A stretch of DNA of 9,474 bases, from assembly GCA_025774865.1 (NCBI GenBank), contig JALGZO010000328.1:1-9474 (forward strand). The letters are read 5' to 3'. The notes below the pieces were generated by a model that ran no database searches, was not told where the DNA came from, and saw only the letters and a list, made by a program, of their open reading frames with translations. This DNA comes from a bacterium. GTDB taxonomy: Bacteria > ARS69. Of this stretch, positions 1 to 9,130 are shown piece by piece. Every line of letters begins with the position of its first letter. The stretch's first letter is position 1. Position numbers and translations under genes: made by a program.

Positions 1-647
1 TTGTGATCCGGATTGAATCGTCGCGGCGTGACGAGATGAAGTTCGCCGGCCGCGGCGCGCTGCCGATACTCCTCGTCGACGCCGAGGAGCAATCCGACCG
101 GCGGATGAAGCTCGGCGTGGGGACCGTTCCCCCCCTCGAACCAGCGCAGACGCCGCGCCATCCGTCGGGCGGACCGGCTGAGCAGGCTGTCGAGGATCCG
201 GCGGATCATCGCGGCCCGGCGCTCGCCCACTCCGAAAACTCGTTCGAGTCGCCCGTCGTGGGCCGTGACTTCCAGCTCTTCCAGGGTCTCGATGTCGAGC
301 TCGTGGTGGATACGGTGGGCGAGGGCGTCGCCGACGCCGGGCAGGGTCGCGAAGAGATCTTCCGGCGAGACCTGTCCCTCCAGGCGGTCGAGCAAGGGAC
401 ACCGACCGGTGAGGAGGATCCCCTGGATCAGGGTCGAGATTCTCTGTCCCACCCCGGGAATCCGGTCGAGGCCGTCGATACCCTCCGCCTGGTAAACGAG
501 CGCGACCGGTCGCGGCCACGCCCTCACCGCCTTCGCGGCGTTCCGGTACGCCCGCACGCGGTACTGGCTCGCGCGTTGAGCCTCGAGCAACGCCGCGACG
601 CGGAACAGGACATCGGCGATCTCGTTGTTGTGCGGTCGCGACATCAT
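1..647 (-). CDS. Helix-hairpin-helix DNA-binding protein, PolX N-terminal-like (partial, C-terminus off the left edge)
   Basis: Only the first 215 residues are visible; the frame is open to the window edge. The N-terminus (NNEIADVLFRVAALLE, then YRVRAYRNAAKAV at about 29-41) resembles the 8-kDa-like HhH domain at the start of family X DNA polymerases. Three helix-hairpin-helix motifs follow: IPGVGQRI (63-70), LPGVGDALAHRI (102-113) and VFGVGERRAAMI (137-148). After a basic linker comes GVDEEYRQRAAAGELHLVTP and RRFNP (189-213). From memory this opens a conserved C-terminal module in stand-alone HhH proteins of proteobacteria and related phyla that lack a polymerase palm domain. I therefore expect a roughly 300-residue DNA-structure-binding or repair-related protein, not a polymerase, but the missing C-terminus leaves this open. 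The start chosen is the first of two adjacent ATG codons, preceded by GGAAGGAG about 9 nt upstream. It has its own leader of about 97 bp behind the Fnr-like gene. Confidence 0.85.
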   Translation of the reverse strand, partial: MMSRPHNNEIADVLFRVAALLEAQRASQYRVRAYRNAAKAVRAWPRPVALVYQAEGIDGLDRIPGVGQRISTLIQGILLTGRCPLLDRLEGQVSPEDLFATLPGVGDALAHRIHHELDIETLEELEVTAHDGRLERVFGVGERRAAMIRRILDSLLSRSARRMARRLRWFEGGNGPHAELHPPVGLLLGVDEEYRQRAAAGELHLVTPRRFNPDH

Positions 648-744: not shown

Positions 745-1479
745 TCAGAGAACGAACCTCTCCTGGATCCGGGCCAGACGGGCGAGGCGAGTCGGGTGTT
801 CGATCAGGATCACGCGGCCGCGGGTCGCGATGATGCCCTCGCGTCGGAGCTCGCTGAGCTGGCGGATGGCGGTCTCGGGGGTCGTCCCGACCATCTCGGC
901 GATGTCGTCCCGGGAAAGCGTCAACCCGATACGAATCCCGTTTTCGGTGGGCTCCCCGTACTTGCGGGCGAGGCTGAGCAGCGTCAGTGCCATCCGCTCC
1001 CCGACGCTGCCGCCGGCGAGCTCGGCCCGCTCCGCTTCGGACCGCAACAGCTGCTCCGCGAGCAGCTTCGTGACGCTCCTCAATGCGGCAGGGCTTTGAT
1101 CGAGCGTCCTCAAGAAGGTGCCGCGGTCGATGTGGCAGACGGAGCCGTCTTCGATCATCTCCGCCGTGGAAGCGTGGTGTCGGCCGGTGAGCGCGGATTC
1201 GACCCCGAGGACGTCACCCGGCCCGGCGAGATAGAGGATGTGTGGTCGGTCCCGCGGCGTGCAGGAGTGAACCTTGACGCGGCCCGATCGGATGCACACG
1301 ACGGTCGCGACGGGGTTCCCCTCGTAGTGCAGGACGTGACCTCTCCCGTAGTGGTGCGTCACCTTGGCGTGGTCGAGATCAGCAAGCGCCGGCGCCGAAA
1401 CGCAGGCGAATACACCCTTGAGGCGGGTCATGCACGCCTCGCAGCTCTCGAGCTTGCCGTTGCCCGTGGGCCGGCGCAT
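745..1479 (-). CDS. Crp/Fnr-family transcriptional regulator, probably FNR-like [4Fe-4S] sensor
   Basis: The 244-residue protein has the full Crp/Fnr layout: a cysteine-rich N-terminus, a cyclic-nucleotide-binding-like beta-roll (about 35-125, with IRSGRVKVHS and LAGPGDVLGVESAL), a dimerisation helix (about 130-160), and a winged helix-turn-helix (about 160-230, with LSRDDIAEMVGTTPETAIRQLSEL). Cysteines at 13, 16 and 26, plus Cys115 in SVCHIDRGTF, line up with E. coli FNR C20, C23, C29 and C122 (the last in MVCEIPFETL). The spacing is C-x2-C-x9-C rather than C-x2-C-x5-C. An oxygen- or redox-labile iron-sulfur cluster is the natural inference. In the recognition helix, E202 and R206 match FNR E209 and R213, but I205 replaces S212, so the DNA site should differ from TTGAT. 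The start is ATG with GAGGGG upstream. A palindromic candidate operator lies 85 bp upstream, suggesting autoregulation. It stands alone, separated by 444 bp from the operon upstream. Confidence 0.9.
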   Translation of the reverse strand: MRRPTGNGKLESCEACMTRLKGVFACVSAPALADLDHAKVTHHYGRGHVLHYEGNPVATVVCIRSGRVKVHSCTPRDRPHILYLAGPGDVLGVESALTGRHHASTAEMIEDGSVCHIDRGTFLRTLDQSPAALRSVTKLLAEQLLRSEAERAELAGGSVGERMALTLLSLARKYGEPTENGIRIGLTLSRDDIAEMVGTTPETAIRQLSELRREGIIATRGRVILIEHPTRLARLARIQERFVL

Positions 1480-1563: not shown

Positions 1564-1581
1564 TTTTGGCTCGGGCCAAAA
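1564..1581. promoter_or_regulatory. 18-bp palindrome, candidate Crp/Fnr-type operator upstream of the Fnr-like gene
   Basis: TTTTGGC and GCCAAAA are perfect inverted arms separated by TCGG on the plus strand. The inner 14 bp, TTGGC-N4-GCCAA, have the same length and spacing as the FNR box TTGAT-N4-ATCAA and share its outer TTG/CAA. It lies in the leader of the Fnr-like gene, centred about 93 bp before its start codon. An A/T-rich patch (GGAAATAC on the minus strand, 1547-1540) sits about 30 bp downstream of the centre. That is roughly where a -10 element would be if the regulator binds near -41.5. The symmetry is seen directly; the assignment to this regulator is inference. Confidence 0.55.
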
Positions 1582-6154: not shown

Positions 6155-7282
6155 TCACCACTCCCGGACGTGTTCGTACAAGGTCGTGCGTTGCATCGGC
6201 CGGAACCCGGCGTCCCGGATGAGGCTCACACACTCGTCCGTGGTGGTCCGATTGTGATGGTTCGCGAGTCTCAAGACGTTCTCCTCGATCAGAGTGCCGC
6301 CGAAGTCGTCGCCGCCCGCGTGCAGCGCGATCTGCCCCGTCTTCTTCCCCTCGGAGAACCAGCTCGCCTGGATGTGCTCGAAATTGTCGAGGTAGACGCG
6401 TGCGAGCGCGATGAGGCGCAGGTACTTCACCGGTCCGGGACTCTCCGGGACCTTCTTCTCGAGAAGCGTGTTGCCCGGCTTGAAGCTCCACGGGATGAAC
6501 GCGGTGAAACCGCCGGTCTCGTCTTGCAGCTCGCGGGTCCGGCGGAGGTGCTCGACGATCTCCTCGTCGCGCTCCGCGTGTCCGTACATCATGGTGGCGG
6601 TCGTGCGGTAGCCGATCTCGTGGGCGGTTCGCATCACCTCGAGCCAGTTGTCGGCGCTCGCCTTCTTCGGGCTGATCCGTTTGCGAACGCGATCGACCAG
6701 GATCTCGGCGCCGCCGCCCGGGATCGTGCGCTGCCCCGCCTCCCACAGCTCCTGCAGCACCTCGCGGATCGAGAGTCCCGACACCTCCGACATCGTGGCG
6801 ATTTCGGACGGACTCCAGAGGTGGATGCAAAGCTCGGGATAGTTCTTCTTCAGCGCCCGCACCACATCCAAGTAATAATCGAATGGGATCTCGGGGTTGT
6901 GACCGCCCTGCAGGAGCGAGGTCGTGGCCCCCTTCTCGACCGCCCGCCCGACCATTTCCACGACTTCGTCGACCGAGTGCCAGTAGCCCTCTTCGTGACC
7001 GGGTTTGCGGTAGAACGCGCAGAAGAGGCAGTCCGTCACGCACACGTTCGTGTAGTTCGGGTTCGTGTCGATGACGAACGTGACGAAGTCGCCGGCCACG
7101 CGCCGCCGCCGCATAGCATCGCCGAGCGCGCAGAGGTCGCCAAGCTCGGCGTCGCGCAAGAGGAACTGCGCGTCCTCTTCGTCGATTCGCTCGGCGCCGA
7201 GGACCCGCCCCGCGATCTCCTCGAAACGGACCGAATCCCCGGACGGGCGGTGCAGGTCCTGCCACGCGAAGCGGGTGGCCAT
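6155..7282 (-). CDS. mqnC: Cyclic dehypoxanthinyl futalosine synthase (radical SAM)
   Basis: MqnC converts dehypoxanthinyl futalosine to its cyclic form by radical-SAM chemistry, the third committed stage of the futalosine menaquinone route, in the cytoplasm. The cluster motif is YTNVCVTDCLFCAFYR with C81, C85 and C88 (C-x3-C-x2-C). It is followed by LLQGGHNPEIPFDYYLD (124-140), the IPGGGAE loop (187-193), ELQDETGGFTAFIPWSFKPGNT (251-272) and a C-terminal DDFGGTLIEENV segment (325-336). Length (375 residues) and the CAFYR signature fit MqnC rather than MqnE. The start is an ATG sharing its A with the mqnA stop (TAATG), with GGAGGAGG about 8 nt upstream. The same frame continues open into mqnA but without homology, so it was not extended. 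Two DNA stretches match its paralogue mqnE. Confidence 0.96.
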   Translation of the reverse strand: MATRFAWQDLHRPSGDSVRFEEIAGRVLGAERIDEEDAQFLLRDAELGDLCALGDAMRRRRVAGDFVTFVIDTNPNYTNVCVTDCLFCAFYRKPGHEEGYWHSVDEVVEMVGRAVEKGATTSLLQGGHNPEIPFDYYLDVVRALKKNYPELCIHLWSPSEIATMSEVSGLSIREVLQELWEAGQRTIPGGGAEILVDRVRKRISPKKASADNWLEVMRTAHEIGYRTTATMMYGHAERDEEIVEHLRRTRELQDETGGFTAFIPWSFKPGNTLLEKKVPESPGPVKYLRLIALARVYLDNFEHIQASWFSEGKKTGQIALHAGGDDFGGTLIEENVLRLANHHNRTTTDECVSLIRDAGFRPMQRTTLYEHVREW

Positions 7283-8055
7283 TAGGCGTCCTCCTCCAAC
7301 AGCTCCTCGAACGCCTGCTGTCCGAGCTCCTCCACCGGGCCGATCCGGTAGATGAACGTGGACAGGTACCGCCGGACCGCCCGACCGTCGAGGCCGAATT
7401 CCCGGCCGCGCCGCGCCGCGATCTCCGGGATCCGGAGCTCCCATCCGCGGAGCGACGACTCGAGGTTCTCGGCCAGAGCGCGACGATCTTCCTCGGGCAC
7501 GTCCTTCGACACGACCCAGCGCGCGAACACGAACGGCAGCGCGCGCCACCCGTGCCACTCCTGCCCGAGATCGTAGACGAAGGGATAACCGTCCAGACCG
7601 TCCCCGGCGGCGAGCAAAGCCTCGTCCCCGATCAGGAGACGGCCGTCGTCGTCCTCGCCGAGCTCGCGCGAGTATTCGAGCTCCGTTTGACCGTATTTCC
7701 GCTCGAGCACGAGGCGAAGGAGCTGGACGGACGTGGAGCTCTCCGACGTGAGTCCGATCTGCCCGCCGGAGAGACGCTCGATCGGCTCGCGCGCAAAGAA
7801 GAGCACGGAGTGCGCCGGCCCCTCGCAGGCGATGCCGAAGTCCCCGAGCAAGTCGAAGCGGTCGCGCAGCCGAAACCAGTCCGCGACGGCCATCGGTCCG
7901 CCGGCCGCCGCTCCCTCCTCCGCGAGCTGCCCGAGCCGGCGTGGACTCTCCCGCACGATCTCGAAGTCGAGAGCGTCCAGATTCGCGTAGAACGGCTCGC
8001 AGTTAAGATACGGGATGAGTGCGAGCGTCGTCTTCGTCGTGGATTTCGAGGACAT
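7282..8055 (-). CDS. mqnA: Chorismate dehydratase
   Basis: MqnA removes water from chorismate to give 3-[(1-carboxyvinyl)oxy]benzoate, the entry step of the futalosine pathway. The 257-residue protein has the periplasmic-binding-like MqnA/MqnD fold. IPYLNCEPFY is at 14-23, with Asn18 in the position of the conserved active-site Asn. GIACEGPAHSVLFFA (74-88) carries Ser83, probably the conserved Ser. IGLTSESSTSVQLLRLVLE (100-118), LLIGDEAL (140-147), and YDLGQEWHGWRALPFVFARW (161-180) follow. The only possible in-frame start upstream of the essential IPYLN motif is the ATG at 8055, which lies 53 nt inside the 3' end of mqnE. Its ribosome binding site is poor, so reading probably depends on translation of mqnE. 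MqnD, the related paralogue for the later step, is less likely because of the LNxxPF and TSES motifs and the co-location with mqnE and mqnC. Confidence 0.94.
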   Translation of the reverse strand: MSSKSTTKTTLALIPYLNCEPFYANLDALDFEIVRESPRRLGQLAEEGAAAGGPMAVADWFRLRDRFDLLGDFGIACEGPAHSVLFFAREPIERLSGGQIGLTSESSTSVQLLRLVLERKYGQTELEYSRELGEDDDGRLLIGDEALLAAGDGLDGYPFVYDLGQEWHGWRALPFVFARWVVSKDVPEEDRRALAENLESSLRGWELRIPEIAARRGREFGLDGRAVRRYLSTFIYRIGPVEELGQQAFEELLEEDA

Positions 8056-9130
8056 GATAGAGGGCGTCCCTGCGGACCGGCACTTTCCCGGCCTCGCGGA
8101 TGAGCTTCAGGATTCGTCGCTGCGTGAGCCCCACGGGGCTCTCCGCCAGTGCGTAGTGCGCGATCTTTTCCTCGACGATCGTGCCGTCGATATCGTCGGC
8201 TCCGAAGTTGAGTGCCACCGACGCCGTCTCCTCACCGAGCATCACCCAGTACGCCTTGATGTGATCGAAGTTGTCCAGCAGGAGGCGGGAGGCGGCGATC
8301 GTCCGCAGTCCGTCGTCGGCGGAAGGGGGACGATCCACCAGCATCGTCGTGCCGAGCTGGTACTCGAGCGGAATGAACGAGTAGAAGCCGCCGGTCTCGT
8401 CCTGGAGCTCGCGCACCTGGAGCATGTGATCCACGCGCTCCTCCAGCGTCTCGATGTGTCCATAGAGCAGAGTGCAGTTCGAGCGGATGCCGAGCTCGTG
8501 CGCTTTCCGGTGGATCTCGAACCAGCGGTCGTGCCCCATCTTGTTGTGATAGAGCTCCTTCCGGATGCGGTCCGAGAACACCTCGGCGCCGCCGCCCGGC
8601 ATCGCGACCATGCCCGCTTCCTTCAGCGTCGCGAATACTTCGCTGAGGCTTTTCTTCGAGATCTTCGTGAACCAGTCGATCTCGACCGCGGTCCACGCCT
8701 TGATCGGGAGATCCGGCTCCTTCTCGTGGAGGCGCGCGACGATCTCCACGTAGTCCTCGAACTTCCACTTGGGGTGGAGCCCCCCCACGATGTGGATCTC
8801 GTCGATGTCGGGAGTCGCGTGAGCGAGGATCTCGTCTATCGCCATCTCGTACGCGTGATCGTCGCCTGCCTTCGCGGCGAAGTCGCAGAACTTGCACGAC
8901 AAGACACAGAGGTTGGTGGGGTTGAGCTGACGGTTGAGGACGTAGAAGACGCGGTCCCCGGTCTTCTTCGTCTTCGCCCGGTCCGCGATCCGGCCGAGGC
9001 CGAAGAGGTCCTCCGTCTCGAGGCAGCCCAGGCCGTCCTGGAAACCGAGGCGCTCGCCCGCTTCCACCTTTTCGGCGATCTCCTGGAGTTTCGGATCTCG
9101 AATGAGTCGGGAGTCGAGCGCGGAGGCCAT
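8003..9130 (-). CDS. mqnE: Aminofutalosine synthase (radical SAM)
   Basis: MqnE joins the MqnA product to SAM-derived adenosyl radical to form aminofutalosine, in the cytoplasm. The radical-SAM cluster motif is NPTNLCVLSCKFCDFAAKAGD, with C75, C79 and C82. HIVGGLHPKWKFEDYVEI (113-130), the MPGGGAEVFSDRIR loop (about 170), ELQDETGGFYSFIPLEYQLGTT and the DDIDGTIVEEKI segment near the C-terminus complete the family pattern. CKFCDFA and GGLHP distinguish it from MqnC. The ATG start has GAGG about 5 nt upstream and sits about 20 nt behind a good sigma-70-like promoter, making this the first gene of the run. The last 17 codons overlap the start of mqnA. The overlap-encoded tail (DEDDARTHPVS) is charged and probably variable. 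Confidence 0.96.
   Translation of the reverse strand: MASALDSRLIRDPKLQEIAEKVEAGERLGFQDGLGCLETEDLFGLGRIADRAKTKKTGDRVFYVLNRQLNPTNLCVLSCKFCDFAAKAGDDHAYEMAIDEILAHATPDIDEIHIVGGLHPKWKFEDYVEIVARLHEKEPDLPIKAWTAVEIDWFTKISKKSLSEVFATLKEAGMVAMPGGGAEVFSDRIRKELYHNKMGHDRWFEIHRKAHELGIRSNCTLLYGHIETLEERVDHMLQVRELQDETGGFYSFIPLEYQLGTTMLVDRPPSADDGLRTIAASRLLLDNFDHIKAYWVMLGEETASVALNFGADDIDGTIVEEKIAHYALAESPVGLTQRRILKLIREAGKVPVRRDALYHVLEIHDEDDARTHPVS

Follow-up and report, generated by a model that had tools for sequence, protein, structure and literature searches.

The closest described systems are Crp/Fnr-type regulators whose sites consist of two half-sites separated by 4 bp. Escherichia coli FNR reads TTGAT-N4-ATCAA. 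HcpR1 of delta-proteobacteria, whose proteins lack the FNR-type cysteine motif, has the consensus wyTTGACnnnnGTCAArw, and NnrR of alpha-proteobacteria has TTGcg-N4-cgCAA (PMC1274295). Rodionov et al. (2005) found that residue 180 of the regulator correlates with base G3 of the site and Glu181 with base A6 (PMC1274295). A literature search returned no paper on FNR operators arranged in tandem at 22 bp, and none on TTGGCNNNNGCCAA.

Here, a window of 9,474 nucleotides (the whole stretch of DNA that was analyzed) was examined together with its host genome, a fragmented assembly of 4.7 Mb in 785 contigs (92.65% complete, 8.3% estimated contamination). The initial annotation had proposed that a TTTTGGC palindrome upstream of an FNR-like gene is the autoregulatory operator of a subfamily with its own DNA specificity. 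Our analysis suggests, with a probability of about 0.74, that this leader is controlled through a tandem Crp/Fnr-type pair next to the palindrome and not through the palindrome itself. The features concerned are the following.

3-647, minus strand: helix-hairpin-helix (HHH, PolX-type N-terminal) gene, truncated by the contig end
699-734, no strand assigned: second predicted tandem operator, ATGACCGGGGACAG-N8-ATGACGAGAATCAT, with 1 mismatch and a PWM score of 22.3
745-1479, minus strand: Crp/Fnr-family regulator (cNMP_binding and HTH_Crp_2 domains; recognition helix TPETAIR)
1564-1581, no strand assigned: palindrome TTTTGGC-TCGG-GCCAAAA, unique in the genome
1583-1596, no strand assigned: unit 1 of the predicted tandem operator, CTGAC-GCAA-ATCAT (TGA-N6-TCA core), from motif and PWM
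1605-1618, no strand assigned: unit 2 of the predicted tandem operator, CTGCG-CCAG-GTCAT, centered 22 bp from unit 1

The regulator contains the two domains of the Crp/Fnr superfamily (PF00027, 1.5e-14; PF13545, 8.5e-18) and is 24% identical to E. coli FNR. Among the four ligands of FNR sensu stricto (C20, C23, C29 and C122), only the equivalents of C20, C23 and C122 are conserved, as a CxxC motif and a Cys122 equivalent; a Cys29 equivalent is absent, and a third N-terminal cysteine has another spacing and is not common to the relatives. The FNR model NF008365 gave 67 bits, below its cut-off of 228. The initial annotation had correctly read the recognition helix, in which the Glu and Arg of FNR are kept and Ser is replaced by Ile (TPETAIR versus TVETISR in E. 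coli FNR, with E209 and R213 kept and Ile at S212). Across the regulator family, Glu181 and Arg185 are accompanied by Ile or Thr at the position of FNR Ser212 and by Pro, Thr, Val or Ala instead of Arg at 180. Given the published correlations, Pro180 together with Glu181 would predict an xTGA half-site, not TTGG (PMC1274295).

The nearest relatives of the regulator are encoded by genomes G001 and G002 (45% identity each) and by a paralogous gene on host contig C75 (41%); a scan of the genome_contigs collection returned only relatives of ~25–35% identity. In the host, Crp/Fnr proteins number at least two (window and C75), with a weak third on C150. The G002 regulator, which is syntenic with the C75 paralogue, has no in-frame ATG, GTG or TTG before its CxxC motif (L125, ~8408–8480), which suggests either an unusual start codon or an error in the sequence.

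The palindrome is real: a sequence check confirmed that its 7-bp arms are perfect and that 4 bp separate them. It lies 85–102 bp upstream of the regulator ATG, within a 444-bp gap bounded by the regulator ORF and an upstream GMC oxidoreductase gene. In dinucleotide shuffles of the gap, perfect 7-bp-arm/N4 palindromes of any sequence appeared at 0.065 per gap, and at 0.002 when TTG was required in the arm, a post hoc criterion picked once the sequence was known. With spacers of 0–10 allowed, the gap holds two such repeats against 0.72 expected, and shuffles of the whole window gave an expectation of 1.5 palindromes with 7-bp arms and an N4 spacer. By these expectations the palindrome is unremarkable per se and unusual only in its TTG/CAA content.

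The proposal of an autoregulatory operator for a Crp/Fnr subfamily with TTGGC half-sites draws on the perfect arms, the FNR-like half-site spacing and the position in the leader. In the host genome, no other copy of the 18-mer has one or two mismatches, 24 have exactly three, and the total of 25 at up to three mismatches compares with 57 for the reversed control. TTGGC-N4-GCCAA occurred as a single exact copy in 4.7 Mb, and single-mismatch 14-mers numbered 79 versus 168 for the reversed pattern. The one-mismatch sites examined all fell within ORFs, and none of the sites found preceded a respiratory gene, a placement that the initial annotation had named as support for its proposal. Two sites of the wider pattern TTGRC-N4-GYCAA were first called outside ORFs; one of these falls inside the first part of the EF-Ts gene, and the other is outside ORFs in the gap between spoVG and an outer-membrane gene. 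An inverted repeat, AATCGCCAA...TTGGCGATT, was observed between spoVG and the outer-membrane beta-barrel gene (L109, 1501–1540; G000:C523). The expected conservation upstream of orthologues was likewise not seen: the leaders of the G001 and G002 genes (the two nearest relatives) and of the C75 paralogue all lack the palindrome, although these genes are not clean one-to-one orthologues of the window regulator. With one genomic copy and none in the relatives' leaders, a TTGGC-N4-GCCAA regulon was rejected, and the subfamily that it was to define, with a site kept in relatives and repeated before targets, was not recovered. A TTGGC operator also conflicts with the Glu181–A6 correlation (PMC1274295), and both the regulator family and the genome-wide data are far better matched by the tandem site next to the palindrome. 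We consider this proposal very improbable.

Most likely, the palindrome arose by chance as an inverted repeat or serves another factor as a private operator, and we regard this reading as highly probable given the expectation of 1.5 such palindromes per window; against it stand the AT-rich TTG/CAA arms, which are unusual in a leader of 66% GC (a post hoc frequency of 0.002 per shuffle). A terminator was rejected, since neither strand of the hairpin is followed by a T-run and the terminator scan did not list it, and no sigma-70 promoter was found. Nor does the palindrome serve as a third 22-bp unit: its center is 17 bp from the neighboring unit, and the register 1561–1596 scores only 10.6. On its gene side, a second perfect palindrome, GACCAGCTGGTC, with 6-bp arms and no spacer (1549–1560), is compatible with chance.

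Directly adjoining the palindrome is the tandem pair at 1583–1618. When scored with a PWM built from 25 other host sites, with the window copies left out, the pair reached 29.9, the top score among 300 shuffled windows being 15.4. Unit 2 departs from the consensus at two positions, and its inner half-site CTGCG recurs in five other regulon copies (C16, C72, C282, C553 and C561). Across 22 leaders of relatives, TGA-N6-TCA was found at six sites versus 0.9 expected, and TTG-N8-CAA at one versus 1.4 expected; of the six TGA-N6-TCA sites, the G001 regulator leader accounts for two and the window for one (1584–1595). The pair can be placed in the Crp/Fnr operator class, that is, TGA-N6-TCA palindromes that lie upstream of genes and co-occur with the regulator. 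Of the proposed autoregulatory operator with altered specificity, the part that assigned it to the palindrome falls, and the part that placed an altered Crp/Fnr-type operator in this leader holds for the tandem MTGAY-N4-RTCAK pair. A chance palindrome and a neighboring tandem operator are compatible readings, and the likelihoods attached to the alternatives are not mutually exclusive.

In the host genome, MTGAY-N4-RTCAK has many sites, which are repeatedly paired at exactly 22 bp. The single-site search returned 86 sites versus 9 for the reversed pattern, an unfair control in that the reversed pattern may hold stop codons in coding DNA; we therefore relied on the tandem search, on intergenic placement and on comparison between genomes. 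The tandem pattern TGAYNNNNRTCA-N10-TGAYNNNNRTCA, searched with up to 2 mismatches, gave 30 copies in the host and 0 for the reversed control. Among the 29 copies read, 27 were located between genes, as judged with an ORF caller that is based on codon usage and was trained with the genes of the window, the ORF boundaries being those of the present analysis. In loci chosen regardless of spacing, 9 of 14 pairs were at exactly 22 bp. The FNR site TTGAT-N4-ATCAA had two exact genomic copies, both within ORFs; exact TTGAC-N4-GTCAA pairs, the type of site that in HcpR1 regulons stands before hcp/frdX, occurred only inside ORFs in the host, and no hcp gene was present among the annotated targets.

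The putative targets form a mixed set of proteases, secreted proteins, transporters and redox enzymes that is not textbook anaerobic. These include enzymes (DeoC/LacD aldolase, oxoprolinase, pyridine-nucleotide-disulphide oxidoreductase, dihydroorotate dehydrogenase, PMSR and a MauG-type dihaem peroxidase), peptidases (M28, M3 and M1), transport and binding proteins (MatE transporter, MFS transporter and phosphonate-binding protein) and others (LVIVD and beta-propeller proteins, a protein kinase, archease and a LuxR-type regulator). An exact tandem operator is located immediately behind the paralogous regulator gene (G000:C75:14087-14122; L123, 8088–8123), ~490 bp before a DeoC/LacD aldolase gene, in a neighborhood similar to that in G002. 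Contigs C69 and C131 share a near-identical tandem operator (ATGACCCTCGTCATGCGAAGACCTG...; L187, 215–260; L192, 2500–2545), reflecting either promoter duplication or overlap in the assembly.

Within the window, the second tandem operator (699–734) is positioned between the regulator stop and the HHH gene. The start of the HHH gene probably fits better at 647 than at the ATG at 734, which places the operator in an intergenic gap. With PWM scores of 29.9 and 22.3, a tandem operator is predicted before each of the two genes (regulator and HHH, respectively), and the HHH gene is probably both neighbor and target of the regulator. Upstream on the same strand, positions 6155–9130 hold genes of the menaquinone (futalosine pathway) type, with two MqnC/CofH-like radical SAM genes flanking a VitK2_biosynth gene.

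The tandem motif was then compared between genomes. At up to 2 mismatches, G002 contained 13 copies (reversed control 0), G001 contained two, both exact, in a genome that is 67% complete (control 1), G004 contained two (control 1) and G003 contained none (control 1). The regulator family was found in the host (G000), G001 and G002, and searches of the G003 and G004 genomes returned no match to it. The co-occurrence of motif and regulator is drawn from six genomes in all, among which G003 and G004 also differ in other respects. When 193 genomes were searched with no more than 1 mismatch allowed, the host (19), G002 (8) and G057 (7) had the most copies, and most genomes had 0 or 1. Outside the phylum, the regulator has its best homologue in G057 (35% identity). 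Each of the seven motif copies in that genome lies between genes, with neighbors encoding NrfA (cytochrome c552), PFOR (pyruvate:ferredoxin oxidoreductase), Usp (universal stress protein), a P-type ATPase for metals and a protein that binds cNMP. Some copies in G001 and G002 are near multihaem cytochromes, and the G001 regulator gene, itself adjacent to a multihaem cytochrome gene, has an exact tandem pair in its own leader. The leaders of the G002, G057 and C75 regulator genes have no tandem site, so autoregulation is not general.

These data bear on which protein reads the sites. An unrelated transcription factor could do so and co-occur with the Crp/Fnr regulator by chance, given that the co-occurrence test covered few genomes and that one target region holds a LuxR-type gene. 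However, TGA-N6-TCA matches the Crp/Fnr core and spacing exactly, the motif stands in regulator leaders of two genera, and the association is repeated in G057, outside the phylum; we consider an unrelated factor distinctly improbable. It is also conceivable that the sites form a Crp/Fnr regulon bound mainly by the C75 paralogue, or by both proteins, with the window regulator as a cascade target. The two host paralogues are close (41% identity), and G002, which has the motif, encodes a single regulator that is syntenic with the C75 paralogue. Set against this, the only regulator of G001 has a tandem site in its own leader, and E181 and R185 are common to both recognition helices, so both proteins may bind. 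We consider this reading rather unlikely, though less so than an unrelated factor.

We favor control of the regulator leader through the tandem pair, for which the following mechanism can be envisaged. Each TGAY-N4-RTCA unit would hold one Crp/Fnr dimer; the unit centers are separated by 22 bp (about two helical turns), and the two dimers would be neighbors on the same side of the DNA. The shared TGA would be contacted by Glu181 and Arg185, and the changes at 180 and 212 (FNR numbering) may loosen the preference for T at the first base or turn it towards A/C, a residue-to-base step that we infer. The regulator would then act on the gene that encodes it, on the HHH gene downstream and on ~25 other transcription units, and both host paralogues may bind the tandem sites. 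Binding by the Crp/Fnr family, cooperativity, a signal sensed through the cysteines (redox, O2 or NO) and any sign of regulation are predictions from sequence. Whether this lineage uses an obligatory two-dimer operator throughout its regulon, with a tetramer-like pair of dimers on two TGAY-N4-RTCA units at 22 bp reading specificity in place of a single high-affinity site, we judge to be evenly balanced.

We know of no experimentally studied regulator in this phylum, which is represented by five genomes. The present analysis provides a predicted regulon of ~27 sites, an operator code and a probable regulator for it. It also offers an example from nature of altered Crp/Fnr specificity, in which Ser212 to Ile/Thr accompanies a first half-site base of A/C instead of T, and a 22-bp tandem fixed across the regulon would suggest cooperative pairs of dimers.

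Compared with known systems, the regulator resembles E. coli FNR in its Crp/Fnr fold, in Glu209 and Arg213 and in the CxxC and Cys122 equivalents, and the sites share the TGA-N6-TCA core and the N4 half-site spacing. The protein differs from FNR in its low identity (24%), the missing Cys29 equivalent and the change of Ser212 to Ile, and the sites differ in having A/C for T as the first half-site base and in their regulon-wide tandems at 22 bp. NnrR, compared here by site consensus, indicates that TTG half-sites without a following A exist in the family, and CTGCG half-sites recur in the host regulon, but its main consensus differs from the TGAY found here. HcpR1 is similar in the absence of Arg180 (Ser or Pro), the retention of Glu181, the TGAC half-site core and the N4 spacing; unlike the regulator described here, it lacks the FNR cysteine motif, and its consensus is a single site with T at position 3, where the host sites have A or C.
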